This document shows, one piece after another, positions 1,526-39,700 of a stretch of DNA of 40,200 bases. The translations under genes and the position numbers were made by a program. How positions within the stretch are numbered: position 1 is the stretch's first letter; each line of letters starts with the position of its first letter. The stretch covers positions 1-40,200 of the forward strand of contig CAIWMU010000009.1 in NCBI GenBank assembly GCA_903913865.1. Reading direction: 5' to 3'. This DNA is from an uncultured Verrucomicrobia subdivision 3 bacterium (lineage in GTDB: Bacteria > Verrucomicrobiota > Verrucomicrobiia > Limisphaerales > UBA8199). A model generated the notes under the pieces. That model worked only from the letters and a program-made list of their open reading frames with translations. It was not told the origin of the DNA and ran no database searches.

Positions 1526-1638
1526 GGTATTGGTATTCTGTCCAGTTCCTCATGGGCTCTGCGCATTCCGGTGTTTGTACATCTCTTTCTGGGATTGGGG
1601 CATGGTCCGGGGGACCCCCGGGGGGTAGTCTGGAGGGT

Positions 1639-3021
1639 ATGAAACAGTTCAATCAGCTCGCAATCGCATCCCCTAGGGACCTCATGTTCGGCACCGCCCC
1701 GCATCCACTCACCACGCGCCAGGGGATGACCATTGGCGGCGGGAGGGTTTATCCGGAGTTGAATTTCACACTGCCGGCGATGTTCGTGCAGGAGGACACG
1801 ATGGTGGAGGTTCGGGAGCATTACCGGCAGATCATCACCGGGGCGATGCAGCGGGCTGTGGAGCTTGAATCCACCGGTGTGGTGGTGGAATTCGAGACGC
1901 TGCCGCCGATGACCGAGAATCCCGGATGGGGTATCGAACTGACGAAGATTTTGCTGGAGGGGATGAACGAGGCACATGCCCGGCACGGGCTGCGAAGCGT
2001 GCTGCGGGTCACGCCGAATGACACGCGGGAAATGGTGCGGCCGCCCCGCATGCGAAGCGGGCCGCTGTTTGAGGCCATGATCAACACGTTTGATGGTTGT
2101 GCCGCGGCGGGTGCGGAATTATTGAGCATCGAATCAGTGGGGGGCAAGGAGGTTCATGACGAGGCATTGATGAACGGGGATTTGAGGGGCGTGATGTTCG
2201 GCCTGAGTGTGCTGGGTGTGCGGGACATGCGATTCCTTTGGACGGAACTGCAGAAGGTGGCTGTGAGGCACGGAGCCCGTTGTGCGGGGGATACGGCGTG
2301 CGGCTTTGGCAACACCGCCATGGTGCTGGCCGAGCAGCGGATGATCCCGAGGGTCTTTGCAGCGGTCGTGCGGGCCATCTCAGCCGTGCGGACGCTGGTC
2401 TGCTATGAGTGCGGGGCGGTGGGTCCCGGGAAGGATTGCGGCTATGAGAACCCGATTCTCAAGGCCATCACCGGCTACCCGATGGCGATGGAGGGGAAGA
2501 CGGCGGCGTGCGCCCATGCGAGTCCTGTGGGGAACATCGCCGCCGCGACCTGCGACACGTGGAGCAACGAGTCGGTGCAGAACATCAAACTGCTGGGGGG
2601 CATGGCCCCGACCTGCTGCATGGAGCAGTTGATTTACGATTGCCGGTTGATGAACGAAGCGCTGGCGGACGGACCGGATGCGGCCCTGATGTATCGCAAG
2701 TGGATGGTGTCATCCGATGCGCCCAGAGATCCGCAGGCCTACATCCTCCGGCCCGAAAGCGCGATTGCGATTGCGGGAGCGATTGTGGGTGCGGGCGACC
2801 CCTACGCTGCCGGCAAGGCGGCGGGCTTGATGGCGCTGAAACTGATCGGTGACGCCCACAAGGATGGTGCGCTCAAGATCGTCCCCCGGGAAATTCCGTG
2901 GATCTCCCGCCTGCGAGGGGTGCTCGAGGATCTGCCCGACAAGGAACCGGAGTTCATCGATCAGATGATGGGGGAGGTCGATACCACCCGGTTCGTGGCT
3001 GAGGATTACGGGATCGGGTAA
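1639..3021 (+). CDS. mtaB: Methanol:corrinoid methyltransferase, MtaB type
   Basis: A 460-residue protein that matches archaeal MtaB, which moves the methyl group of methanol to the Co(I) corrinoid of MtaC, along its whole length. Recognisable blocks are GLTIGGG-like GMTIGGGRVYPELNFTLP near the N-terminus, LSIESVGGKE, AGDTACGFGNTAMVLA, GAVGPGKDCGYE and KTAACAHASPVGNIAA. The zinc ligands known in Methanosarcina MtaB (Glu, Cys, Cys) have clear equivalents here at E165, C221 and C267. ATG 1639 has GGAGGG at 1632-1637, closer to the start than usual. No mtaC or mtaA lies in the window, so the corrinoid partner must be elsewhere or the substrate may differ. It follows an AraC regulator and ends 2 nt from the convergent PPC gene. 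Confidence 0.85.
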   Translation: MKQFNQLAIASPRDLMFGTAPHPLTTRQGMTIGGGRVYPELNFTLPAMFVQEDTMVEVREHYRQIITGAMQRAVELESTGVVVEFETLPPMTENPGWGIELTKILLEGMNEAHARHGLRSVLRVTPNDTREMVRPPRMRSGPLFEAMINTFDGCAAAGAELLSIESVGGKEVHDEALMNGDLRGVMFGLSVLGVRDMRFLWTELQKVAVRHGARCAGDTACGFGNTAMVLAEQRMIPRVFAAVVRAISAVRTLVCYECGAVGPGKDCGYENPILKAITGYPMAMEGKTAACAHASPVGNIAAATCDTWSNESVQNIKLLGGMAPTCCMEQLIYDCRLMNEALADGPDAALMYRKWMVSSDAPRDPQAYILRPESAIAIAGAIVGAGDPYAAGKAAGLMALKLIGDAHKDGALKIVPREIPWISRLRGVLEDLPDKEPEFIDQMMGEVDTTRFVAEDYGIG

Positions 3022-3023
3022 GG

Positions 3024-5351
3024 TCAGGGTTCGGTGATCTCGAACGGGATGGCGGGCAGGGTGCCGACTGCCATGCGTTTGATCTGGGCCTTGGGGTTTT
3101 TTGCGGCTGCCGCCGGGGTTCTGGAAGTGAACACATTCACGATCAGGTTCCCCTTTGTTCCCTTGGGCATGGTGGAGGTGTTGGTCAGGGTAATCTCTGC
3201 CTGACCCCGGTTCATGCCCACCTTCTCAATGCGGATGCCTTCGGGCGGGTCGTTGAGTTCAAGGTGGACCCGGTCCAGAAAGCCCCCCGGAGCGCCGGAA
3301 AGCAGGACCTTGCCGATGCCTCCCGCCGGGATTTTGACAGGTCCATCCCCGACGATGCGAACGGATTCCCGGGAGAAGATCTGGTTGCGGACCAGCACGG
3401 CCAAATCGGCAGCTGGGACCAGGTGTCGATAGAAAAATGCCTGCATCATGTCGTCACAAGGTTCGGCCGGGCGGGTGATTGCGCGACCGCCGACGATGGC
3501 GTAGCCCTCGACCTCCAGACGCAGCACGGCGGCCTCCGCATCTGGCGGGGCGCTGACGGTGGCGCGGACCTGGTCCTGCCCTGCAGGGATGACCCCGCCG
3601 GAGAGGGTGTAGCCGGCTGGCGCGTCCTTGAAGCCGAGTTTGATCTGGTTGGTGAAGCCGTCCCTGCGCAGTGCGTAGCATGTGACCGGCTGGCTGACCC
3701 GGGTGCGGATCGTGAGGCTTGACGGGACGAGCCGCAGTTCAAAGTCGGGCCTGGGAGGGCTGAGGCGCAGGCGGTATCCAAACTCCGGCCCGCCCTGACG
3801 CTGGGAATCTGAGACACGAACATGGTAAACCCCATTCGTGGGGAGAGTGACCCGGATATAGGAGTCGGCGTGGTGGGTTTCGAGGCCCTCCCCCTTGTTC
3901 TCGAAATCGTCGTTCTCGGCGAGGACTCCCCCATCCGCTGCTGTGACGGTGAGGTGCGAATCCAGCGGTGAGCCGAGCCTGCGTGCGTTTACTTCCGCCA
4001 CGAGGATCTGGCCCGCCTCGCCGGAAAGCTGGTAGAAATCCACATCCCCGGCCTGACCGATGCGGCCGTTGATGATGGTGCCCCAGGGAATTTTCTGTGC
4101 CTTCTTCGCTGAATCATTCGGCTCACGCTCGGTGACATCAGGAAGTTCGTCGCGGGCAAAGGGGACCGGGTTGATGGCCCCGGTCTGGGCCGGCGAGAGG
4201 CTTGTGGCCGGGTCATCGGTGGCTGTGGCCGGATCTTTGCTGACATGCTTGTTGGGGAGGTTCCATCCCTGCAGCTCGATTTCAACCGGTGCAGCGCTCC
4301 GGCCTGCCGGGGCGACAGATTCGCCCAGTGGAAAAATGCCGGTGATGAATGGTAACTCCCCAACCGTGAGCCGGTAGATGAAATCCTCCCGGCCCCGATA
4401 AATGGAGTCCTTGATTTCCAGGCTGTATTCACCGTCCTCCGGAATCACCACGTGAAGGACTGGATCGGGCCGGAAGCGGAAGTCATCGTCGTAGGCGAGT
4501 TCCCGTCCCTTTGAATTATGAACTGCCAGTGTTGCTTGAAACCAGCCCGGGACGGCATCCGCAAGATAGGGCACGAGGTCGCGGGCACTGACCATGGCGA
4601 CGATGCTTTGGCCCTTGCGGGCGTGGAAGCGGTAGCGGTCCACTTCGCTCGGGAAGATCTGGCCGTTGATGGTGGCCGGGGCGGTAAAGGGGATGGGGGG
4701 CCTTGATTTGATGGGGGTTTGCTCGTTGGCGAGCTTTGGAATGCGGAATTTGCCGGTGTAATTTTCCTGTGCCGGGGGTGGTTCCGTGATTTCCGGAAGG
4801 TCGCCCACGTGGAAAATGAGGGGGTTGGAGAGGCCGGCAGTGGCGGAGATCCGGATTTCACGGGGCCCCATCGGGGCATTGGTTTCGATGGTGACCTTCA
4901 GAATGACCGACTCGGCGATGGCAGCGGTGATGGGCCTGCGCTGAAAGGCCTCCATTTTGGCACGGATCTCCTCAATTTCCTTTTCATCGGCGGGAGTCCA
5001 GACGAGTTTTTCCTCCTTGGAATCGGCCGCTTTTTTGCCCTTGCGCTGATTCTGCCGGGTGACGGTCGTCCGCTTGTCCTGAAGCTCACGAAGGCGGTCC
5101 CGGAGGTCGTTGATCTGCTTTTGAGTCAGTGGCTTGTCGTAGTCGATGACCGTGGCCGTGACCCCCCCGCCCGAAAAGAGGGTGTTGGTGGCGCCATCGA
5201 GGAATTGCCCTCCCACGGTGACCTGAAACGTGGTTCCACGCCTTCCACCTGCGGGGTAAACATAGCCGGTGCGAGGACCGGAAGCCTGGGCAGAGGCGGA
5301 ACCGGGGTGGGCGAGTGCCAGCAGCAGCGGGAGCAGCAGGAGTTGCTTCAT
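3024..5351 (-). CDS. Secreted PPC-domain protein with coiled coil
   Basis: A 775-residue protein with a signal peptide (MKQLLLLPLLLALAHPGSASA). Next comes a short Ig-like beta segment, then a charged, lysine-rich stretch around residues 75-130 that should form a coiled coil. Two repeats of the bacterial pre-peptidase C-terminal type follow (around 225-335 and 405-535, each with 'G.vDfy.f...G' and 'L.ltV.D' like motifs). It is the last gene of a three-gene operon after DUF1549/1553 and DUF1501 proteins, 7 nt downstream of the latter. Proteins of this layout are characteristic of planctomycetes and verrucomicrobia; their biochemical role is not established. Probably exported and surface or periplasm located. 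Confidence 0.75.
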   Translation of the reverse strand: MKQLLLLPLLLALAHPGSASAQASGPRTGYVYPAGGRRGTTFQVTVGGQFLDGATNTLFSGGGVTATVIDYDKPLTQKQINDLRDRLRELQDKRTTVTRQNQRKGKKAADSKEEKLVWTPADEKEIEEIRAKMEAFQRRPITAAIAESVILKVTIETNAPMGPREIRISATAGLSNPLIFHVGDLPEITEPPPAQENYTGKFRIPKLANEQTPIKSRPPIPFTAPATINGQIFPSEVDRYRFHARKGQSIVAMVSARDLVPYLADAVPGWFQATLAVHNSKGRELAYDDDFRFRPDPVLHVVIPEDGEYSLEIKDSIYRGREDFIYRLTVGELPFITGIFPLGESVAPAGRSAAPVEIELQGWNLPNKHVSKDPATATDDPATSLSPAQTGAINPVPFARDELPDVTEREPNDSAKKAQKIPWGTIINGRIGQAGDVDFYQLSGEAGQILVAEVNARRLGSPLDSHLTVTAADGGVLAENDDFENKGEGLETHHADSYIRVTLPTNGVYHVRVSDSQRQGGPEFGYRLRLSPPRPDFELRLVPSSLTIRTRVSQPVTCYALRRDGFTNQIKLGFKDAPAGYTLSGGVIPAGQDQVRATVSAPPDAEAAVLRLEVEGYAIVGGRAITRPAEPCDDMMQAFFYRHLVPAADLAVLVRNQIFSRESVRIVGDGPVKIPAGGIGKVLLSGAPGGFLDRVHLELNDPPEGIRIEKVGMNRGQAEITLTNTSTMPKGTKGNLIVNVFTSRTPAAAAKNPKAQIKRMAVGTLPAIPFEITEP

Positions 5352-5358
5352 ATCGCTC

Positions 5359-6729
5359 CTAGATCAGTTCAATGAGCCGCCCGCCCGAGGCGGTTTTCTC
5401 CCCCGGCGGGGGCGAGACTTTGGCTTCGATGCCCTGGGGATGCGGCAATTTGGCGTTGGTGTCGATCCCGAGCAGGTCATACATCGTGCCGATGAGATCG
5501 CAGGGATAGACCGGGCGATCCTTGACCTCCTCACCCGTGGCGTTGGATGATCCGAGGACATGGCCACCCTTGAAGCCGCCACCGGCCACCAGCGCTGAGA
5601 AGACTTTGCCGAAGTGGTTGCGGCCGCCGTTCCATGGGGCATCCCACTGCACCTTGGGGGTGCGGCCAAATTCCCCGCAGCACCAGATGATGGTGTTCTG
5701 GAGCAGGCCACGCTCCTCAAGGTCCTGCAGCAGTGTGGCGAGGCCCTTGTCCAGCTCCGGCAGCTTTCGCCGCATGGTTTGGAAATGCTGTTTGTGGGTG
5801 TCCCATCCCTTGTAGTTGATGGTGATGTAGGGGACCCCTTTTTCCACCAGCCGCCGGGCCATGAGGCAGGATTGGCCGAAGGTGTTCCGACCGTAGCGCT
5901 CGCGAAGGGCATCCTTTTCCTGTGCGAGATCAAACACCTTGCCGGCATCCCCGAGAATGAGGTCGTAGGCCTGGCGTTCGCAATCAATGGCGTTGGTGAT
6001 CTGGGGATCGCTCTGCAGGGCGTGGTCGAGGCTGTTGAGTTCCTTGAGCAAATCCCGGCGGGATTGTTGCCGCGCCTCGGTGATACCGGGGGCAACGACC
6101 CCCTCAACGGCGAACCGGGTCTGGGCGGGGTCGCCCCCGGTGGCGTAGGGTTTGAAGCGGGAACCGAGAAAGCCTGCTTCGGAAAAACGTCCCTGCGGTT
6201 CCGTGAGGACAACGTATGGGGGAATCAGCCCTTTGTAACCGGCATCATACCCCTTGAACAGGGAGACGACAGCCCCCATGGATGGGTAAACCTGGCGGTC
6301 CCCGGGCTGGCGTCCGGTTTGGACGAGATAGGCCGCCGTTTCATGGCCGTTGTTGCCATGGGTCATGCTGCGGATGAGGGAGAACTTGTCGGCTGTTTTT
6401 GCCAGGTTCGTGAGCAGTTCGTTGAGCTGGATGCCATCCACATTGGTGGGGATGGGTTTTTCAAACTGACCGAAATAGTCACGTCCAGCGCCGGGTTTGG
6501 GATCGAAGGTGTCGATGTGGCAGGAGCCTCCCCAGAGCCAGATCTGGATGACCGCCTTCGCCTTGCCCTGGGTTGGGTTGATGGCTTTTATGAGGGGGGC
6601 GGCGAGCGATCGCCCGGGCAGCAGCAAACCTGCCGCGGCGAGGAGTCCCGATTTGATCAGCTGCCGCCTCGACAGGGGATTATTTGAGAGGAGCAATGGT
6701 GTGCCATCGGTGTAGAGATCTATTTTCAT
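5359..6729 (-). CDS. DUF1501 domain protein with Tat signal
   Basis: A 456-residue protein. The N-terminus carries a twin-arginine motif (SRRQLIKSG, residues 20-28) followed by a hydrophobic stretch ending near SLAAP, so export in folded form is likely. The body has the DUF1501 hallmarks: WLWGGSCHIDTFDPKPGAG early, MTHGNNGHETAAYLVQTGR, GWDTHKQHF, and CCGEFGRTPK near the C-terminus, typical of this family's sulfatase/alkaline-phosphatase-like fold. Its start is 3 nt after the end of the DUF1549/1553 gene and its end is 7 nt before the PPC gene, so the three are almost certainly co-transcribed. No substrate is known for the family. Confidence 0.9.
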   Translation of the reverse strand: MKIDLYTDGTPLLLSNNPLSRRQLIKSGLLAAAGLLLPGRSLAAPLIKAINPTQGKAKAVIQIWLWGGSCHIDTFDPKPGAGRDYFGQFEKPIPTNVDGIQLNELLTNLAKTADKFSLIRSMTHGNNGHETAAYLVQTGRQPGDRQVYPSMGAVVSLFKGYDAGYKGLIPPYVVLTEPQGRFSEAGFLGSRFKPYATGGDPAQTRFAVEGVVAPGITEARQQSRRDLLKELNSLDHALQSDPQITNAIDCERQAYDLILGDAGKVFDLAQEKDALRERYGRNTFGQSCLMARRLVEKGVPYITINYKGWDTHKQHFQTMRRKLPELDKGLATLLQDLEERGLLQNTIIWCCGEFGRTPKVQWDAPWNGGRNHFGKVFSALVAGGGFKGGHVLGSSNATGEEVKDRPVYPCDLIGTMYDLLGIDTNAKLPHPQGIEAKVSPPPGEKTASGGRLIELI

Positions 6730-6732
6730 GTC

Positions 6733-8412
6733 TTAATGGCGGTGGAGGAATTCGGCGCTGTTGATGAGGGCCCATGCCAGATCGAGGGCTGCCTCGCGGG
6801 GTTTTCCCTTGTTTTTCCGGGCGTAGGTGAGGGCTGCCTCCGACTCGGACTCACTCGGGTGCCGTGAGAGAATGGAAAGGTAGAGTCCGGTGATATCGGG
6901 GCGGGAGAGGGACTCGGTCTTCAGAAAATGTTCCAGCTGCGGCCCGTCCTCCAGCTTGCGCTGGATCTGGGTCGAATTCAGCAGGTGGAGTCGCTGGGCG
7001 GCTGTGATCCGGTTGTTCCGTTCCGATTCCATCCCGGTATCCCGTGCGGGCCGGCCAAAAAGTTCCAGGAAGGGGCTGCTGATGCTGCCATCCGGGAGGG
7101 CGATGGCCCGGAAATCTTCCGGGATGAAGGTGAACGGCTCCGGGATGACGCTCGTGTAGTGCTCCGCGCCGCCGGTGACCTGGTTCAGGGCATCGATCAG
7201 CACTTCCGCCTCCAGACGGCGCACGGGGTAGAAGGCGAACTGGGCGCGGGCCTCATCTGCGCGGGAAGGATCGGCGGGGATGGGTGAGAGTTGATAGGTG
7301 CGGGAGTTGAGAATCAGGCGCATCAACTGGCGGAGGTCGTATTTTGAGTTCCTCAGTTCCCGTTCCAGGCAGTTCAGGAGGGCGGGGTTCACGGGCGGGT
7401 TGTCGGGGCGGATGTCATCCACTTCGTGGACGATCCCACGCCCCATGAGCCAGCCCCAGCACCGGTTCGCGATGGCCCGGGTGAACCAGGGGTTCTCAGG
7501 GCGGATGAGCCAGTCGGCGAAAACGAGGCGAGGGTCGGCATCCCCGGAAATTCCGTGGGTGGACTTGCCCGGGGTGGACCCGTCTGGAAAGTGCGGTTCT
7601 GCGAGGGGGGTGGCATTGGTTTTTGAGGGGTCGAAAAAGATGACCTCCTCTTTCCATTCCTGGGTGCCCTTCGCGCCCACCTTCCCGAAAAACGCCGCCA
7701 TTTGTGAGAGCTTTTCCTCCGGCCACTTGTCGGCGCGCTGCCCCATGAAGGTGAGCGCCACCGTTTGTGCGATCCCAGCCGGTTCCCTGTTTTGCATCGC
7801 CCGGTAAAAGTTGACCGGGGGCACGCGGAAGTTGCTTCCGCTGGAGGTGAGCATTTCCCTGGCGAACCGGTCGTAGGGCATGTTGTCGCGGACGGCGGTG
7901 CGGATCCAGCGATGGTAGGCCTGGGCGGCATTGGGCCAGAGATTGATCGGAAATTCGGCCTTCACCCGGAGGACATCGCACCACTTCATGGCCCAGTAAT
8001 CGACATACTCCTCCCGGGCAAGAAGCCGGTCGATCAGGGCTGCCCTCTTGTTCGCAGAGCGGTCCGCATAAAACTGCGCGGATTCCCTGACGGTTGGCAG
8101 GGTGCCGATCACATCCAGAAAGGCACGCCTCAGAAAGACGGAGTCGGAGCACGGGCGGGCCGGTTTGATGCCCAACTTTTCGAGCTGGGAGAAAACCAGC
8201 TCATCGATGACCGAGGCCCTGGTGGTGAATTCAGGAGCTTCAAACGGGTTCAGTCCCGCACTCAGGGGGGCTGTGTCTGCGGGTGCGGTCGTGGAGGCTT
8301 TTGACGGGGTGGTCGCGCCCTTTCCCTGACCGGGCTTGTCGGGGGAGGGGGCTGAAATTGCAACCCCACCCCATACAATCACCATCGCAATGACCAAGCG
8401 CAAACGCTTCAT
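6733..8412 (-). CDS. DUF1549 and DUF1553 domain protein
   Basis: A 559-residue exported protein with a signal peptide (MKRLRLVIAMVIVWGGVAISA), a short low-complexity Pro/Ala/Thr/Lys linker (about 22-52), the DUF1549 domain (about 62-240, with SVFLRRAFLDVIGTLPT and YVDYWAMKWCDVLRVK) and the DUF1553 domain (about 300-540, with NPWFTRAIANRCWGWLMGRGIVHEVDDIRPDNPP and RRLEAEVLIDALNQVTG). Many family members carry a cytochrome c-like heme domain in front of DUF1549; no CxxCH motif is present here. First gene of the minus-strand trio. The TAA-containing leader before ATG 8412 shows no strong Shine-Dalgarno sequence. Confidence 0.9.
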   Translation of the reverse strand: MKRLRLVIAMVIVWGGVAISAPSPDKPGQGKGATTPSKASTTAPADTAPLSAGLNPFEAPEFTTRASVIDELVFSQLEKLGIKPARPCSDSVFLRRAFLDVIGTLPTVRESAQFYADRSANKRAALIDRLLAREEYVDYWAMKWCDVLRVKAEFPINLWPNAAQAYHRWIRTAVRDNMPYDRFAREMLTSSGSNFRVPPVNFYRAMQNREPAGIAQTVALTFMGQRADKWPEEKLSQMAAFFGKVGAKGTQEWKEEVIFFDPSKTNATPLAEPHFPDGSTPGKSTHGISGDADPRLVFADWLIRPENPWFTRAIANRCWGWLMGRGIVHEVDDIRPDNPPVNPALLNCLERELRNSKYDLRQLMRLILNSRTYQLSPIPADPSRADEARAQFAFYPVRRLEAEVLIDALNQVTGGAEHYTSVIPEPFTFIPEDFRAIALPDGSISSPFLELFGRPARDTGMESERNNRITAAQRLHLLNSTQIQRKLEDGPQLEHFLKTESLSRPDITGLYLSILSRHPSESESEAALTYARKNKGKPREAALDLAWALINSAEFLHRH

Positions 8413-12529: not shown

Positions 12530-14266
12530 TCAGGGTCGGGAGGGGGTGTTGGCGGGTACCGTGGCTCCAGCGGGGTTGTAGAAAGGATGGACTTTGACGC
12601 GTTGGGCCCAGGCCAGCCATTCCCCGGCCAGCTTGGCGACCCGGTCCGGATATTGCCGCGCCAGATCATGCTGTTCCGAACGATCGGTCTTGAGATTATA
12701 AAGTTCCCATGCCGGTTTGGCGGGCATGCGCTTGCCCCAGGCGATCTTCCAATCACCCCTGCGCAGTGCGCGGGCTTCCTGATGTTCGAAGGACAACCCC
12801 CGTTCGGGGAGCTTCCGTCCCTCGAGGGCGGGGAGGAGGCTGATGCCCTCGATGGGGATGGCGGGTTGTCCGTTGCGCTGTGTGGGTTGGGAGATGCCGG
12901 CGGCGTCCAGCAGCGTTGGGGTGATGTCCATGATGTGGGCGGGATCCGCGATCCAGTCCCCGCTTCTGGTGAACCCTGCGGGCCAGTGGACAATGAGGGG
13001 GCTTGAGATGCCGCCCTCATGGCAGAAATGCTTGTAGAGCTTGAGGGGGGTGTTGCCAAGGTTCGCCCAGGCGGATCCATAGGATTGGAAGCTGTCCCGT
13101 TGTCCGGTTTGTTCCAGTTCCGCACCCGTGTGGAGAGTTGTTTTGCCCTGGCGTGATCCCCCATCAAACCCAAACGGCCCCCATTCGTAACAGGCACCAT
13201 TGTCGCTCAGGAAAAGGATGATCGTTCTGGCGAGTTCCCCGTTTCGTTTCAAATCTTCGATGAGACGTCCGACTCCCTGATCAATATGATCCACCATGGC
13301 AGCGAAGGTGGCCATCCGGCGGGCGAGGTCCTCGCGGCGGTCATCCGGCAGGGAATCCCACGCCGGGTTTTGGAGTCCCGGGAAACCGTTGGCAATATCG
13401 CTGCGATCCACCGGAACCAATTCCCGGGGAGGGAGTGTGGTGTTGCCGGGGATGAGGCCGAGCTTTTTCATCCGCGCGAATCGTTCGTCACGGAGAACAT
13501 CCCATCCCCGGCGATAAAGTGGCATGAACTTTTCGATGCTGGATCTTGGGGCGTGGATCGGAAAATGTGGCGAGGAATGGGCCAGGTAGAGGAACCACGG
13601 TTTGGAGCCCGCTCCTGTTTTTTGCTGGCGGGCCTGTTTGAGGAACTCAAGGGCGTAGTCCGTGAAGACGTCTGTGGCATAGAATCCCCCATCCGGATAG
13701 GCCAACTCGGGTCTGCTTCCCGAGGGCAGCCGCTCGTATTTCGAGGGGTCCCACTGGGTTTCCGAGTGGGAAATGAAGTTGCGGAAACCGTAGTAGTTTT
13801 GGAAACCACGCGCAATGGGGCCGGGATTGCCAAGGTGCCACTTGCCGACCATCCATGTGGAATAGCCAGCCCCGGCAAGCATCTCCGCGACGGTGCTGCA
13901 ATTCGGAAGGAGGTGTCCGGTATAGGCCGGGCCCCGGCTGGAGTCAGGCTTTCCTGTGGTCATATCTCCGACTCCTGCCTGGTGGGGGTGCAACCCGGTC
14001 ATGAGGGAGGCACGGGAAGGGCAACACCGGGCCGAATTGTAAAAGTCGGAGAACCGGACTCCACCTTTAGCAATACGGTCGATGCTGGGGGTCGGGATTT
14101 CTCCGCCGTAACAGCCCAGATCAGAATATCCAAGGTCGTCGGCAAGGATCAGGAGGATGTTAGGCCGGGTTCCGGAGGCCTTTGCTGCCGATGCTGTGGA
14201 CGGGCAGAATGCCTGAGAGCAAACCGCCAGGATGCAACCGTATCTGAGGACCGTCATGATGCGCAT
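12530..14266 (-). CDS. Exported arylsulfatase (formylglycine type)
   Basis: A 578-residue sulfatase that hydrolyses sulfate esters. The N-terminal hydrophobic segment (MTVLRYGCILAVCSQAFCPSTASA) is a signal peptide. Active-site features are LILADDLGYSDLGCYGG (metal aspartates near 43-44), CCPSRASLMTG with the first cysteine (C81) in the C-x-P-S-R formylglycine position, MVGKWHLG, and FLSDNGACYEWG. ATG 14266 was chosen; the frame extends to 14356 without a better start, and ATG 14257 is also possible. The protein probably works in the periplasm on sulfated glycans or aryl sulfates. No formylglycine-generating enzyme is in the window. No operon partner; it faces the cupin gene. Confidence 0.9.
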   Translation of the reverse strand: MRIMTVLRYGCILAVCSQAFCPSTASAAKASGTRPNILLILADDLGYSDLGCYGGEIPTPSIDRIAKGGVRFSDFYNSARCCPSRASLMTGLHPHQAGVGDMTTGKPDSSRGPAYTGHLLPNCSTVAEMLAGAGYSTWMVGKWHLGNPGPIARGFQNYYGFRNFISHSETQWDPSKYERLPSGSRPELAYPDGGFYATDVFTDYALEFLKQARQQKTGAGSKPWFLYLAHSSPHFPIHAPRSSIEKFMPLYRRGWDVLRDERFARMKKLGLIPGNTTLPPRELVPVDRSDIANGFPGLQNPAWDSLPDDRREDLARRMATFAAMVDHIDQGVGRLIEDLKRNGELARTIILFLSDNGACYEWGPFGFDGGSRQGKTTLHTGAELEQTGQRDSFQSYGSAWANLGNTPLKLYKHFCHEGGISSPLIVHWPAGFTRSGDWIADPAHIMDITPTLLDAAGISQPTQRNGQPAIPIEGISLLPALEGRKLPERGLSFEHQEARALRRGDWKIAWGKRMPAKPAWELYNLKTDRSEQHDLARQYPDRVAKLAGEWLAWAQRVKVHPFYNPAGATVPANTPSRP

Positions 14267-14686
14267 GGTTTGCAAGTTGATGGGGCACGTGTGCTCGGAT
14301 CCGGTCATGGGACTTACCCTCCCGTTGGGGGCCAAGCTATTCGTGACACTTTTCACCGTGCCAAATCAGTGGGTTACGCGCCAGTGGAATCGTGTTCCCA
14401 GGGAGAGGGTGTGGTGGGGGCTGAGGATGTTCCGGCAGGAATCCATCCTTATTCGGCCGGGGCATGACCCATTGGGAAGCTGTTCCACAACCCTGGAGAA
14501 ATTTTTGTGATTCTTAGTGCTTGCTATTTCTGGCATAAATGTCAAAGTCCTGCTTGTCTGGTAGATAGATTGTCGATTCCACGGCATGGAAATCTTCAGG
14601 TGAACTCGGTTCAGTGATGATTTGAAACCCGATAAGCGGGAACAGTCTGGATAAAGCAGAGTCGGTCTCGGACGAACGATAAATAG

Positions 14687-23677: not shown

Positions 23678-25384
23678 TCATTTCTTTCCTGTGAGTCTTT
23701 CAATTTCAGCCGTGTATGTTTCCTGGTCCTCCCTGCGGTTCAGCTTCGTCGCGAGCGGGAGCATCCTGCGGTAGAGGGAAAGTTTGTCGCCATGGTCCGG
23801 GAAGGTTTTCAGAATCGTGGCGTAATCGGCAAGGGCCTCGGAGTCCTGGCCGCTTTCTGTGTATCTCGAAATACGTTCCATGAGAATGCGAAGCTTCTGT
23901 TGCGGTGATGAAGCCAGGCTGAGGGCGCGGTTGTAGGTGAAGAGGGATGACGAAGGTTTTCCGATCGTCCAGTAAAGGCTGGCCAGTTTTTCGGAGAGAA
24001 TGCAACTTGTCTTTGTGAGGCCCAGGTCCTCCAGCATCGTGACGCAAACGGAAAGGGGTTTGCCGTTGATCAGGTTGATGTTCATCAGCCGGGCATAATA
24101 CCACTCCATCAGGGGGTTTTCCGTGCGCATGAACTGGTCATGAAGCTGTTCCGGGGTGCGGGTGAACGGTTTGTAAAGGGGGTCTCCCACGACTGTGGTC
24201 ATCCAGGACAGAACGGATTGGGATGCGCAGGCCGCCTCGCCGAAACTGAACCCGTGGAACAGGAACCGGGAGGTGAAGGTGCTGATGTCGGGGGTCCCGG
24301 CCAGATAGGGTTCGTAAACGGTGCCCATGGTGATGGTTGCACCCTTGTTCAGGAGAGGCCCCACCCAGTGGCGGGTCGTGGTTCGGAGGGTGCCGGCACT
24401 GAAGGAGTGGAGATGGTAGGCAAAGGCACCTGGAACGAAGTCCACATCAGGCTGGGCGAAGGGGCCGCTGACATTCTCATCATACCAGCCCGCATAATAG
24501 GCTATGTGATCCATCGGATAGCTGGCGGTGAAGGTGCCTGCATTGGTGTCCACCATGGTTTCAAAACCGAGGTGTTTCGATATTTCCGAGGCGTTGCGGA
24601 TCCAATTATCGCCCGTGCGATACCCCTCCTCGGTGGTGTTGCGGAGGTCGAAATAGCTGTTCCCCCAGAGTCCGTTGGTTTCGGCCTGCATGGCCTTGTC
24701 CACCAGTGCACGGGCGATTTGCGGCGTTGGGCCGTCCAGCCGGGCAACCATGAGGATGCCGTTGGTGGGGTGCAGGGCGGCCAGGTTGGTGGAGCCGTAA
24801 ACGGGATTGTTGAGGGGCCCGCTGATCGGGAGTTTTCTCTCGAGCAGGGGAAGAAAGGCCAGTTCGCTGTCCACCGCCGCCTCATTGCGCTGCATTTCGG
24901 GACGCATTTTTTCCGCAGCATCCTCCCGGACTGTGGGATCCTTCTGGATCCGCACGGGCACGCCATAACAGAGGACCGCATAGCGGATCTTTGATTCCAG
25001 AACGACCTTGTCACTCACTGGCGCCTGGTTGGTTCCAGGGAAGGGCGGCCGTTCGCCAACCCTCCATAGTTTGCGATCCTGCAGAGCCTGATAAAGGGGG
25101 AGTTGCAGACGGGTCCGAAACTCGGTGCGGTTTATCTCCTCCTCGGTGCTCAGGTCGAATCCGATGATTTGATCGGCAGGGACCCCGCGTGCCGAGGCAT
25201 AGTGGGATGCGATCTCCTTCGACTCAGGGACCCGCGTGTTGAAGACCACCACGACTTCCCTACCGGAGTTTGCGGAGGTCGGCTTGATTGCCGGGGAGGC
25301 AGCCAGACTGTCCGGTCCCCCGGAGGCAGAAACCGTGCACATGGCCCAGAGGGCTGTGGCGATAAAAAGAATAATGGAATTCAT
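23678..25384 (-). CDS. TIGR03790 family exported protein
   Basis: A 568-residue protein with a signal peptide (MNSIILFIATALWAMCTVSA). The region about 40-370 shows the TIGR03790 pattern: VVVVFNTRVPESKEIASHYASARGVPADQIIGF, YAVLCYGVPVRI, ILMVARLDGPTPQIARALVDKA, and HWVGPLLNKGATITMGTVYEPYL with VVGDPLYKPF. The C-terminal ~150 residues are helical and TPR-like (tetratricopeptide-like spacing in LYWTIGKPSSSLFTYNRALSLA and SEALADYATILKTFPDH). The family has no known function. It lies between the MBL hydrolase and tcdA on the same strand. Confidence 0.75.
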   Translation of the reverse strand: MNSIILFIATALWAMCTVSASGGPDSLAASPAIKPTSANSGREVVVVFNTRVPESKEIASHYASARGVPADQIIGFDLSTEEEINRTEFRTRLQLPLYQALQDRKLWRVGERPPFPGTNQAPVSDKVVLESKIRYAVLCYGVPVRIQKDPTVREDAAEKMRPEMQRNEAAVDSELAFLPLLERKLPISGPLNNPVYGSTNLAALHPTNGILMVARLDGPTPQIARALVDKAMQAETNGLWGNSYFDLRNTTEEGYRTGDNWIRNASEISKHLGFETMVDTNAGTFTASYPMDHIAYYAGWYDENVSGPFAQPDVDFVPGAFAYHLHSFSAGTLRTTTRHWVGPLLNKGATITMGTVYEPYLAGTPDISTFTSRFLFHGFSFGEAACASQSVLSWMTTVVGDPLYKPFTRTPEQLHDQFMRTENPLMEWYYARLMNINLINGKPLSVCVTMLEDLGLTKTSCILSEKLASLYWTIGKPSSSLFTYNRALSLASSPQQKLRILMERISRYTESGQDSEALADYATILKTFPDHGDKLSLYRRMLPLATKLNRREDQETYTAEIERLTGKK

Positions 25385-35475: not shown

Positions 35476-38400
35476 ATGCACTATTGGCGCGCGATTGCTT
35501 TGGCCGTTTGGGTTTTATGTTTCACGATGCCTGCGGGGGCGTATCAAGGCCATCTGGTGGTTGAGGGGCCGATTACCCTGGCCCTGGGGGGGATTCCCAC
35601 GGTGAAGGAGCTGGCTGCGGTCCAGAGGGTGGGGGTCACCCTCACGAACAGTGGCGCCGCAGAGATCCGGGTGCGATTGAAGCTCTCCGGCCTGGTGGAT
35701 CCCTGCCGGGCGCGGGGCGGGGGGGAGCGGGAGATCACGGTTCCTGCGCACGGGTTTGCCGAGTCGGAATTTCAATTCACGGTGGGGGCAGGGGCATTCC
35801 AGGCCGCCTACCCGGTGCATGTCCTTGCGGAGTGGGATGGGGGTGGCCGCAAAGCCCACGCGATCCGGATCTTCGAGGTTGCCCCGGCGGGCAAGGCGGC
35901 CACTGCGCCGGTGGCTACAGTGATCGAGGTTCCCTCCACCGGAGGGAGCCCGCTGGCCGGGGTGTCCCCCTGGCGTGCGGCCTGGGGGTTGGCGGGGAAG
36001 GACCTGCACGCGCTGCCGCCGGGCTGGGAGGGGAGCGACCCTGAATCCCTTGCTTTTTTTCAGCGGAACGAGATGGCGCGGGGCCAGACCAGGCAGTGCC
36101 TCAATGTGCATCCCCCCTACAAGACCGGGACCGGCCCGCTCTTTCTGGAATATCGCATCCATCTGCCAAAGGGATTGCCCTCCGTGTTCCGGTTTTACAA
36201 CGCGATCCGGGATGTGTTTCCACCGGAGCCGCCCAGTGATGGCGTCACCTTCCGGGTCTGGGTGGGGGATGAGAAGGTGTTTGAGCGTCATACCGCCTCG
36301 ACCGTCTGGGTGCCGGGGGAGGCGGACCTTTCCCGCTGGGCAGGCCAGACGATTTCATTGCGGCTGGAGACGCATCCCGGGCCGAAGCTGGATCCCACAT
36401 GCGACTCCTCCTACTGGGGGGATCCGGTGGTGCTGGCAGGAAAGCCGCCGGTGGTGCTGGGGGAGGGGGCTGTGGCGGCGAATATCGGAAGGGCCCGGGA
36501 GGCGGTTCTTTCCGGGCGGGAGAGCACCGGAATTCATCTGCTGGCGCTGGCGGACGGGATGAGGGCGGCTGTGGTGCCGGGCCCGAACGGGCTGGCCGAT
36601 TCGGTGGTCGCCTTTGGCTCTGGAAAAGGGGCGGTGGCGATGCGCGGCTTCACCATCGCGCTGGAGGGGCAGAATTTTGGAGGGTGGGAATCGGGGATCC
36701 AACTGGAGAAACTCGACGTGGAAAGGAAGGGGGACCGGCTGGTGCTGCGCCACCGGTTGAGGCTGCAGCGGATGTTCAGGAAGGACGGGCGCCCGGTTCC
36801 AACTGAAACGGCTTCGGTCCTGCTCACCGCCACCTTCCGCGTGGATGGGCCCGGGTTGCGGCTGGCTGTTGAATCGGACGCACGCCTCACGGATCTTGCC
36901 CTGGGACCGGCTGACGCGGAGGCCGACCGCGTCTATTACGGGCATGGCTATGTGATCGAGAAGCCGGGCCGGTTCAGGGCCAATGGCGGCGGGCACGACC
37001 TTTCCACCAGCCATGTGGGATGTGATTTTCCCGGTGGCGTTTCCCTGCTGCAGGCCTGCGACACACCTCCCGATTTCCTCCTCGTGGATCCGGGTGAGCG
37101 GATTTACTCGTTGCACACCCACCCGGATGCGACGCTGACCTTCCTTCCCGGCCACGGGAATGCGATCGATTGCGCCTTGAAATACAGGGCCCTTTATGAC
37201 AAGAAACCGGCTCCTGCTGTTGCGCGGAAGGCGGGTCGGTTCGTGTTCGACATCTGGGCCGGCACCTATGCTGATGATGAGCGGCTGCTGCGGCGCTGCT
37301 TCGATTACGGCCTGACCAACTCGATGGTGCTGATGCACGCCTGGCAGCGCTGGGGCTATGACGACCGCCTGCCGGACGTCTTCCCCCCGATGCCCCAGCT
37401 TGGGACTGTGGAGACGATGCGGCATCTGGGTGAGACCTGCACCGGGGCGGGGGTTCTCTGGGGGTTGCATGAGAATTACATCGATTTCTATCCGGATGCC
37501 GAGGGGTTCAGCTATGACGCCATCACCTTCGATCCCCGTGGGCAGCCGGACAAAGGCTGGCTGAACGAATGGGCCGAGGCCCAGGCCTACAAGTTCCGTC
37601 CGGACCGTTTCCAGCCCTATCTCAGGCGCAACCTCGGGCTGATCGCCCCGGCGCTCAAGCCGACCGCCTCGTTTGTGGATGTCTGGACCTCCATGAACGC
37701 TTTTGACTACCACGACCGTGAGGGGCGCTGGCATTCCAAAATGGAGACCCTCCGCTGCTGGGGGCAGGCGTTTGATGACATCCGTCGCGCCTTTGCGGGA
37801 GGCCCGACCACGAGCGAGGCGGGCAGCGACCAGTTGATCGGCCACCTGGATGGCGCGGACTGCCAGTTGATGCGGCTCACCCCGGAGGGAGGCCGGTTCA
37901 GCAACCGGGTGCCCTGCGCCGATTGGGAGGAGGTGCCCTGGTTTGATGCCGTGAACCACACCCGGTTCAGCCTGCACGGCGTCGGCTATTCGGACCGCTA
38001 CCAGGGCGGGCGCTCGCGGGAAAATCACGGTATCGAGAGCGATGATTACCTGAGCGCGGAAATGCTCACCGGACACGCGCTTATGATCGACCATCCCGCG
38101 ATGATCCGCGGGGCGGTGCGAAAATACTGGCTGGCCCAGCCGATTGCCGAAAAACTTGCCAGGGACGAGATCGCTTCCATTCGCCACTTTGAGGGGGACC
38201 TGCACCGGATTACCGTGAACTGGGTCTCCGGCGCGGCGGTTCATGTGAACCGGGGATCAAACGACTGGGTCGTGGGGGGGCATGTGCTTCCGCAGTTTGG
38301 ATACCACGCGCAGGCGGGCGGGGTTGAATCCAGCGTCGAACGGATGTCGGGCGAGACGGTGGAACGTTCCGTTGCCGGGAACATTCTGTATGCGAACGGC

Positions 38401-39168
38401 CGTGGATTCCGGCCGGAAACCGTGGCTGCCAGTCCGGTCGTGGAGCGGGTTGAGCCGCTGGGAGGGCGGAACTTCCGCCTGATCCTTCGATGGCACGCCG
38501 CGCAGGCTGCGCAAAAAGATCTGTGCATTTTTGAACATTTCAACCGCAGCACTCTGGGAAGATACAAGGATACAGAGTTTTACAGCGGCGGCTATCCGGA
38601 GCTTCCCACGAGCCAGTGGTCGGGGGACGTGGTGACCGGGACCAACTGGACGGTGCATATCCCCGAGGGTTACCCTGCGGGCGATTACGATATCCTGTGT
38701 GGAATGTATGATGCGAAGGCGGGTGGCATCCGCTACCGGCTGGTCGGGGATGAACGGGATGGGCGGCGGTATCTGCTCGGGGTTCTCCATGTCGAGGAAT
38801 CGGGAGGGGGTGCGGGCGATCCGGTGCGGATCAGCTTCATCAAGCCGTCCCGGCCCGCTGCCGTGGCAGAAGTGCCCCGGGCGGCGGCACGGGTGGACTT
38901 TGGCTGGGTGGAGACCACCGGCGGGTTGAGGGCGATCCGGGCCCGCGACCACCTGCTCATTGTTCCACTGCCGGATCAGGACCCGTTTGAACTTGCCCTG
39001 AATCTCTCCCGGTGCGCGGGACCCCGCGCCACGCAGCGGGGATTGAGTGCCGTGGCGGCCGACGGCAAAATCCTGCGGCCTGTTCCCTGCCGGGCGGAGG
39101 GCGGAACCGTGCGGTTTTCAACGGAACGCGGGGATTTTGGCTACCGGCTTGAGCTGGGCGGGGATTGA
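35476..39168 (+). CDS. Large secreted GH101-like glycosidase
   Basis: A 1230-residue exported protein with a signal peptide (MHYWRAIALAVWVLCFTMPAGA). A beta-rich N-terminal region leads to a galactose-binding-like jelly roll (about 160-320, ending in a DLSRWAGQTISLRLE and SSYWGDPVVLAG pattern). A long beta-rich region follows. The catalytic TIM-barrel-like part spans about 585-900 (starts FDIWAGTYADDERLL). VDVW with D735 and TSEAGSD with E781 resemble the nucleophile (VDVW) and acid (TTEWG) of GH101 endo-alpha-N-acetylgalactosaminidases. The C-terminus is Ig-like. The link to GH101/DUF5696 is by motif from memory. GGAGGT lies 13 nt upstream of ATG 35476. Monocistronic; 28-bp convergent overlap with the next gene. 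Confidence 0.7.
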   Translation: MHYWRAIALAVWVLCFTMPAGAYQGHLVVEGPITLALGGIPTVKELAAVQRVGVTLTNSGAAEIRVRLKLSGLVDPCRARGGGEREITVPAHGFAESEFQFTVGAGAFQAAYPVHVLAEWDGGGRKAHAIRIFEVAPAGKAATAPVATVIEVPSTGGSPLAGVSPWRAAWGLAGKDLHALPPGWEGSDPESLAFFQRNEMARGQTRQCLNVHPPYKTGTGPLFLEYRIHLPKGLPSVFRFYNAIRDVFPPEPPSDGVTFRVWVGDEKVFERHTASTVWVPGEADLSRWAGQTISLRLETHPGPKLDPTCDSSYWGDPVVLAGKPPVVLGEGAVAANIGRAREAVLSGRESTGIHLLALADGMRAAVVPGPNGLADSVVAFGSGKGAVAMRGFTIALEGQNFGGWESGIQLEKLDVERKGDRLVLRHRLRLQRMFRKDGRPVPTETASVLLTATFRVDGPGLRLAVESDARLTDLALGPADAEADRVYYGHGYVIEKPGRFRANGGGHDLSTSHVGCDFPGGVSLLQACDTPPDFLLVDPGERIYSLHTHPDATLTFLPGHGNAIDCALKYRALYDKKPAPAVARKAGRFVFDIWAGTYADDERLLRRCFDYGLTNSMVLMHAWQRWGYDDRLPDVFPPMPQLGTVETMRHLGETCTGAGVLWGLHENYIDFYPDAEGFSYDAITFDPRGQPDKGWLNEWAEAQAYKFRPDRFQPYLRRNLGLIAPALKPTASFVDVWTSMNAFDYHDREGRWHSKMETLRCWGQAFDDIRRAFAGGPTTSEAGSDQLIGHLDGADCQLMRLTPEGGRFSNRVPCADWEEVPWFDAVNHTRFSLHGVGYSDRYQGGRSRENHGIESDDYLSAEMLTGHALMIDHPAMIRGAVRKYWLAQPIAEKLARDEIASIRHFEGDLHRITVNWVSGAAVHVNRGSNDWVVGGHVLPQFGYHAQAGGVESSVERMSGETVERSVAGNILYANGRGFRPETVAASPVVERVEPLGGRNFRLILRWHAAQAAQKDLCIFEHFNRSTLGRYKDTEFYSGGYPELPTSQWSGDVVTGTNWTVHIPEGYPAGDYDILCGMYDAKAGGIRYRLVGDERDGRRYLLGVLHVEESGGGAGDPVRISFIKPSRPAAVAEVPRAAARVDFGWVETTGGLRAIRARDHLLIVPLPDQDPFELALNLSRCAGPRATQRGLSAVAADGKILRPVPCRAEGGTVRFSTERGDFGYRLELGGD

Positions 39169-39679: not shown

Positions 39680-39700
39680 GTGCCCCAACCGGGTTTGGAG
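39680..39700. repeat. 21-bp direct repeat, copy 1
   Basis: Core TGCCCCAACCGGGTTTGGAG; identical to 40180-40200, exactly 500 bp away. It sits inside a GACTCC (39672-39677) / GGAGTC (39697-39702) inverted repeat and contains the near-palindrome CCAACCGGGTTTGG. No gene is visible from 39555 to the end of the window. Confidence 0.7.

Follow-up and report, generated by a model that had tools for sequence, protein, structure and literature searches.

A predicted secreted glycoside hydrolase on a separate branch of the GH101/GH129 superfamily in an uncultured Verrucomicrobia subdivision 3 bacterium

The stretch of DNA analysed here, referred to as the window, comprises 40,200 nucleotides of contig CAIWMU010000009.1 from an uncultured Verrucomicrobia subdivision 3 bacterium (assembly GCA_903913865.1). 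Near its end, a gene on the forward strand encodes a protein of 1230 residues. A first, sequence-only reading had described it as secreted, with a catalytic pattern like that of glycoside hydrolase (GH) family 101 and a jelly-roll domain ahead of the barrel. The length is as described, and secretion is probable. The N-terminus, MHYWRAIALAVWVLCFTMPAGA followed by YQGH, has the appearance of a Sec-type signal peptide when read by eye. The protein is a member of the GH101/GH129 superfamily with a TIM barrel and lies on a separate branch. Its nearest relatives are NagBb, the GH129 alpha-N-acetylgalactosaminidase of Bifidobacterium bifidum (5wzn/5wzp/5wzr), and DagB (ZgGH129; 5opq, 8rzk), the 3,6-anhydro-D-galactosidase of Zobellia galactanivorans, rather than GH101. 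A 629-aa antisense open reading frame (ORF) at 36355-38244 was taken as a shadow ORF. The gene and its domains are as follows.

35476..39168, + strand: whole gene, ATG start, 1230 aa, glycoside-hydrolase-like, predicted secreted
35476..35541, + strand: putative Sec signal peptide, residues 1-22, read by eye from the sequence
35566..35895, + strand: N-terminal all-beta domain, residues ~31-140, from the secondary structure of model m1d708ec00b92
35935..36447, + strand: jelly-roll with a fold of the carbohydrate-binding module (CBM) 51 type, residues ~154-324, from model m565712a59ffa (CBM51 7jrm, Z 14.2)
36529..37230, + strand: beta-sandwich ahead of the barrel, residues ~352-585, with counterparts in NagBb and DagB, from the VIA alignment and secondary structure
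37234..38175, + strand: predicted TIM-barrel catalytic domain, residues ~587-900, from the model, structure matches and the NagBb phmmer match at 597-785
38173..38325, + strand: beta-domain after the barrel, residues ~900-950, from secondary structure, within the NagBb and DagB structural alignments
38428..38805, + strand: C-terminal beta domain, residues ~985-1110, with a weak NPCBM_assoc match (E 0.026, below the cut-off)

Sequence comparison places the protein closest to NagBb. With the single sequence, phmmer matches NagBb to residues 597-785 (E 4.6e-8, 34 bits over 189 residues), and the family profile finds it at E 2.9e-11. The EngBF entries (GH101) follow at E 0.0086-0.0092 with the single sequence, the family profile finds no GH101 structure at E<=1, and DagB was not reached at E 10 by phmmer with the window protein. 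The hhalign probability was 99.3 against a four-sequence GH129 profile (312 columns, 26% identity) and 99.8% against DUF6259-type relatives.

The main AlphaFold2 model covers residues 31-1230 (model number plus 30 gives the residue) and was built from 40 alignment rows. Its mean pLDDT is 90.2 and its pTM is 0.87 (predicted local and global confidence). Foldseek ranks NagBb first (E 1.6e-24), then DagB (4.6e-24), then GH101 entries from 1.7e-21. With VIA-align, NagBb 5wzp (Z 31.4, 3.7 A over 529) and ZgGH129 8rzk (Z 30.5, 5.1 A over 544) are tied within 1, and the top row of any other kind has Z 21.1. In the VIA alignment, model positions 322-915 span NagBb 1-628, so the beta-sandwich, TIM barrel and following beta domain are common to both. 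Identity to NagBb in structural alignments is only about 15-16%, the window protein is about 590 residues longer, its CBM51-type domain included, and the later barrel motifs are unlike. DagB also has the three-domain core. GH101 enzymes have the superfamily fold and the G[LV]H and YP[DE]A motifs in common with the protein, but whole-chain TM-scores are low (0.27-0.34).

The residues proposed for catalysis lie in the barrel. D735 stands within FVDVWTS and E781 within TTSEAGSD, the positions at which the sequence-only reading had placed them. The residues of interest are listed below.

37678..37680, + strand: D735, proposed nucleophile, end of beta4, equivalent to NagBb D435, from alignment and model
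37816..37818, + strand: E781, proposed acid/base, just past beta5, equivalent to NagBb E478, from alignment and model
37249..37251, + strand: D592, in beta1 near the strand end, invariant in 55/55 rows, from alignment and model strand 559-563
37336..37338, + strand: H621, just past beta2, in the place of NagBb D322, 55/55 rows, from alignment and model
37468..37470, + strand: H665, in beta3, in the place of NagBb H366, 55/55 rows, from alignment and model
37558..37560, + strand: W695, candidate stacking platform, 55/55 rows, aligned with a GH101 Trp and adjoining NagBb W398, the exact column varying with the alignment

Model strands 559-563, 586-590, 631-637, 701-705 and 748-750 were assigned as barrel strands beta1 to beta5. 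D592, H621, H665, D735 and E781 lie within the ends of these five successive strands or directly beyond them, which is where the active sites of such barrels are located. D735 and E781 thus end neighbouring strands, and this position suggests that they face one cleft. Both are invariant in all 55 rows of the family alignment A3, as are D592, W594, H621, W623, H665, N667, D670, W695 and D785. Among the 80 related loci retained from the genome scan described below, the pair is present in all 79 that cover it; the remaining one (L110) ends before both residues. A 74-row superfamily alignment has D and E in the two catalytic columns of every row. The outcomes that the sequence-only reading had named as refuting it, a predicted fold lacking the TIM barrel, loss of conservation at D735/E781 or their pointing away from a common cleft, did not occur, the cleft being judged by place at the strand ends. 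By alignment column, D735 corresponds to NagBb D435 and E781 to NagBb E478, presumably the second catalytic residue of that enzyme. D435 is named as a catalytic residue in PMC5698469. The spacing between the two residues is 46 here, as the sequence-only reading had counted, 43 in NagBb and 31 in DagB (D486-E517). The long gap is therefore common to GH129 rather than new, and a gap length this variable was rejected as a family marker. The value of about 32 given for GH101 comes from the sequence-only reading. The protein is very probably an active glycosidase that uses D735 and E781. The idea of a non-catalytic glycan-binding relative, which a large multi-domain beta-rich protein might bring to mind, is highly improbable, as the two catalytic-type carboxylates and many residues of the barrel are the same in all 55 rows.

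The surroundings of the catalytic pair differ from those of NagBb. NagBb wild type and its quadruple mutant differ at four residues, the His of WVHVGI, H320, D322 and H366, which are presumably the Ca2+ ligands. Of these, H366 has its counterpart in H665, H621 takes the place of D322, and H320 is replaced by L619 (T/I/V/L/M across the family); the His of WVHVGI has no safe alignment to the family. W623 corresponds to NagBb W324, and NagBb HLDGW reads LMHAW in the window protein. DagB, like the window protein, has HAW in place of HLDGW. The metal or sugar site of the clade looks rewired. According to a review, Ca2+ and W398 support binding of N-acetylgalactosamine (GalNAc) in NagBb (PMC8106489). 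The residues named for the active site of DagB are D486, E517, E531 and Asp202 from a second monomer (PMC5698469). The same paper argues that DagB forms a new family separate from GH129, a case that backs splitting of the superfamily.

Several domain models and a tree were used to delimit the family. DUF5696 (PF18952) gives 20.6 bits for the protein, under the gathering cut-off of 25.6 bits. It matches 39 of 40 family members at E<=0.01, at best 1e-10, and so borders on the family. Glyco_hydro_101 (PF12905) is not listed for the protein up to E 10, although the HMMER filters drop most weak matches, and it matches one of the 40 members (E 0.0041). A PF12905 search of 116 genomes of the order gave no match at E 1e-15, control genomes being equally silent, and thus shows nothing. 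GH101 as the family was ruled out by the Pfam, profile and alignment results. From the GH101-like pattern first proposed, the catalytic-type D/E pair and the superfamily are retained and the assignment to GH101 is dropped. PF11308 (Glyco_hydro_129) matches none of the 40 members at E<=0.01, although enzymes of the NagBb type may not be what this model describes. A protein that PF11308 matches at 328.7 bits (L118) gave no match among solved structures up to E 0.1, and at E<=1 a NagBb-like protein (L002) was matched by DUF5696 but not by PF11308. "Glyco_hydro_129" may therefore be a misleading name for this Pfam model.

The NagBb-like protein L002 is a GH129 paralogue encoded in the bacterium's own genome (G000:C204:4379-6457, - strand). 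It matches NagBb with 366.6 bits over 598 residues (E 2e-108) and carries the motifs VHLDGW, HDQYRD and SSEE. The window protein, with 34 bits to NagBb, is not a plain GH129 enzyme by this comparison. In a tree of 42 rows (23 of the 55 family rows and 19 others, NagBb itself being absent), a 100/100 branch splits the family and a second tier (L023, L008 and L009) from the NagBb-like, DUF6259-type and PF11308 rows. Support for the family alone is only 85/66, and long branches were flagged. The second-tier proteins have the D/E pair and the DIW, HxWQxxGYD and HENYxDxYP motifs in common with the window protein. They differ in being only 24-25% identical to it (alignment A2) and in having GEGANH or GEGNNH at the acid/base, where the window protein has SEAG.

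The jelly-roll was found ahead of the barrel, as the sequence-only reading had stated, with a second beta-sandwich in between. Modelled alone, it has a pLDDT of 93.7. It is nearest to CBM51 modules, with CBM51-2 7jrm at 2.4 A over 130; the CBM51 modules of GH95 and GH98 score near 13, CBM6 and CBM61 near 11, and other CBM folds 10-12. Foldseek alone ranks CBM4-2 top (E 1.2e-6). A Pfam scan of the protein gave no match within the jelly-roll region, and the predicted CBM51-type fold does not reveal a ligand. NPCBM_assoc, the model weakly matched by the C-terminal beta domain, matches 7 of the 40 family members at E<=0.01. A motif, [FY]xGHxxxEGP, follows the putative signal peptide and recurs among the relatives.

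Relatives of the protein are widespread. A search of 58 genomes, the bacterium's own included, found five full-length relatives that are 47-64% identical to the window protein (alignment A1). Among 320 genomes of the order, again including its own, there are 11 carriers at E<=1e-100. A scan of a genome collection for the conserved patterns gave 241 stretches, of which 236 encode a relative; 80 of these were kept. Alignment A3 contains the window protein and 54 of these 80, at 34-64% identity, and alignment A4 the window protein and 39 relatives. The 26 loci left out of A3 comprise fragments and near-copies, together with some ordinary full-length genes. Record titles place the kept loci in Verrucomicrobiota, Planctomycetota, Lentisphaerae/Victivallales, Kiritimatiellae, Armatimonadota, Sumerlaeota and Omnitrophota, and the full-length copies span at least five phyla. 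One copy (L089) is carried by an isolate, Oligosphaera ethanolica DSM 24202. Some titles name rumen and rectum metagenomes and some groundwater or a reactor; most do not tell the habitat. Viral contigs gave no match to the protein.

Among the relatives, a GH5-like gene lies upstream on the same strand in 24/80 loci, and a GH50 agarase-type gene lies downstream on the same strand in 21/80. The contigs of all these loci bear the titles Planctomycetota, Phycisphaerae/-ales or Sedimentisphaerales. When only loci with enough flank are counted, the GH5-like gene lies close by in 20 of the 63 that have 3 kb or more upstream, leaving aside a remote piece on the minus strand in L047, and GH50 is present in 16 of the 63 with at least 2.2 kb downstream. 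Pfam was applied to two GH5-like and two GH50 proteins of the cassette; both GH5-like proteins contain CBM4_9. The GH50 protein of one locus (L080) matches the solved beta-agarase 4bq2 (E 1e-101), which is presumably Aga50D, as the numbering fits. Across the genomes of the order, 10/11 carriers and 45/309 non-carriers have a GH50 gene (E<=1e-100, Fisher p 1e-7); counted by genus, the figures are 7/8 and 25/110 (p 4e-4). The association of the GH5-like gene (E<=1e-60) is weaker, with 7/11 carriers and 22/309 others (p 6e-6). The bacterium's own genome has a GH50 gene (L133) at 52% identity and no GH5-like gene at E 1e-60. Counted on an alignment, its GH50 protein keeps all six active-site residues of Aga50D that are given in PMC11079163.

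Other genes near the relatives were noted as well. In 3/80 loci (L050:4224-5915, L071 and L072) the cassette also contains, between the GH5-like gene and the family gene, a member of the periplasmic pectate lyase family (PF06917; E 6e-170 in L050). In Thermoguttaceae and other planctomycetes (L085, L086, L092, L094-L097, L100, L102 and L106) a conserved protein of about 530-610 aa is encoded downstream. Pfam gave no match for the one copy tested, that of L096. In nine loci a glycosyltransferase-like gene, named by eye, comes next. Near two orthologues (L144 and L145, in G022 and G089) there is a gene that by eye resembles an altronate/galactarate dehydratase of the UxaA type, hinting at use of sugar acids.

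It seems more likely than not that the window protein is a secreted retaining alpha-glycoside hydrolase of its own clade in GH129/GH101, which acts together with GH50 on alpha-linked galactose-type residues of a galactan. GH101 and GH129 enzymes are retaining, and retention would be expected for the window protein from its place in that superfamily. D735 would serve as the nucleophile and E781 as the acid/base. The enzyme would remove an alpha-linked galactose, 3,6-anhydro-galactose or a derivative from the galactan, working alongside a beta-galactan hydrolase of the GH50 type, and the N-terminal CBM51-type domain could anchor it on the glycan. Breakdown of galactan is indicated by the recurrent GH50 and GH5-like neighbours, and a galacto-configured alpha-linkage as the target appears somewhat more plausible than not.

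Several observations weigh against this interpretation. H320 and D322, which belong to the four residues altered in the quadruple mutant of NagBb, are replaced here, and the sugar in subsite -1 may therefore differ. GH50 was not found in 59/80 related loci, including all those titled Verrucomicrobia/Verrucomicrobiota, and one of the 11 carriers is without it. The bacterium's own GH50 gene is on a different contig; the window contig stops 1 kb past the gene. The co-occurrence figures ignore genome size and kinship beyond genus, and large genomes could inflate GH50 and GH5-like counts alike. A GH50_3 member is a beta-1,3-glucanase with the same six active-site residues (PMC11079163), so that agar is not proven.

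Three other substrates were considered. An exo-alpha-1,3-(3,6-anhydro)-D-galactosidase acting like DagB on carrageenan or furcellaran oligosaccharides is unlikely. The structural tie of DagB with NagBb and the HAW of DagB speak for it, as do sulfatase genes within the fetched flanks of 8/80 loci (Pfam was applied to 8 of 9 sulfatase-like ORFs). However, DagB is out of phmmer's reach whereas NagBb is matched, and a GH50 partner would suggest an agar-type beta-1,4 galactan over carrageenan. Just as improbable is a hydrolase of another alpha-linked sugar, for instance a uronic acid; the GH50 genes nearby would then be a sign of a mixed polysaccharide. The replacement of NagBb H320 and D322 by T/I/V/L/M and H would fit such an enzyme, and so would the pectate lyase gene, but the latter is limited to three loci and both structural neighbours act on galacto-configured sugars.

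The sequence-only reading had proposed a new branch acting on mucin-type or other amino-sugar glycans. The separate branch was found; for mucin there is only the superfamily link, the CBM51-type fold and some gut relatives. An exo- or endo-acting alpha-N-acetylgalactosaminidase on mucin-type O-glycans would agree with the alpha-GalNAc target of both NagBb and GH101 on a common fold, with the CBM51 modules matched in PDB, which belong to enzymes such as ZmpB, GH95 and GH98, and with the relatives from rumen and rectum. It is nevertheless judged the least likely of the three, because HLDGW of NagBb is replaced by LMHAW, the recurrent neighbours are GH50 and GH5-like genes, the relatives are not confined to the gut, and the genome already has a NagBb-like GH129. 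Galactan is thus favoured over mucin as the substrate.

In the window, the gene is flanked by a nadA-like gene (by eye) and, on the opposite strand, a DCC1-like gene. A sulfatase (12533-14356, minus strand, PF00884 E 2.6e-57) is present, as had been pointed out in support of glycan use; it is weak evidence, being 21 kb from the gene with unrelated genes, partly named by eye, in between. A local polysaccharide locus was rejected, since beyond the sulfatase and an amidohydrolase the neighbours are otherwise unrelated. Eleven neighbours were tested by Pfam: the sulfatase, the amidohydrolase, MtaB, PPC, DUF1501, PSCyt2/PSD1, RecG, MraW, a sigma-54 regulator, the DCC1-like protein and one that was unmatched, a 568-aa protein at 23678-25384 (minus strand) with no Pfam match at E 0.001. 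The genes nadA, gpsA, plsY, lpxB and rex were assigned by eye from N-termini. A protein with a strong match to MtaB (methanol-cobalamin methyltransferase B) is encoded at 1552-3021 (+ strand, E 3.9e-165), beside planctomycete-type PPC/DUF1501/PSCyt2-PSD1 genes at 3024-8412. The sequence CCCCAACCGGGTTTGGAG is present once at 39683 and once over the final bases of the contig (40183-40200), and the contig may end in a repeat.

The protein is a distant cousin of enzymes that take galactose-type sugars off mucin and off the polysaccharides of seaweed, and its own target is probably a glycan that contains galactose. Tentatively, its clade could be the founding group of a new GH family in the GH101/GH129 superfamily, with the NagBb metal site rewired to the invariant D592/H621/H665, and with a cassette of GH5-like gene, family gene and GH50 that would strip alpha-linked galactose-type units from galactan. 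The family is not named in the titles and abstract openings of the portion of the GH129, GH101, DUF5696 and GH50 literature that was covered. With 236 related stretches in the genome scan, the clade is large and apparently uncharacterised. It fills the gap in sequence space that separates GH129, DagB and GH101, which are used on glycans of mucin and seaweed, and it points to a gene cassette with a directly testable substrate.

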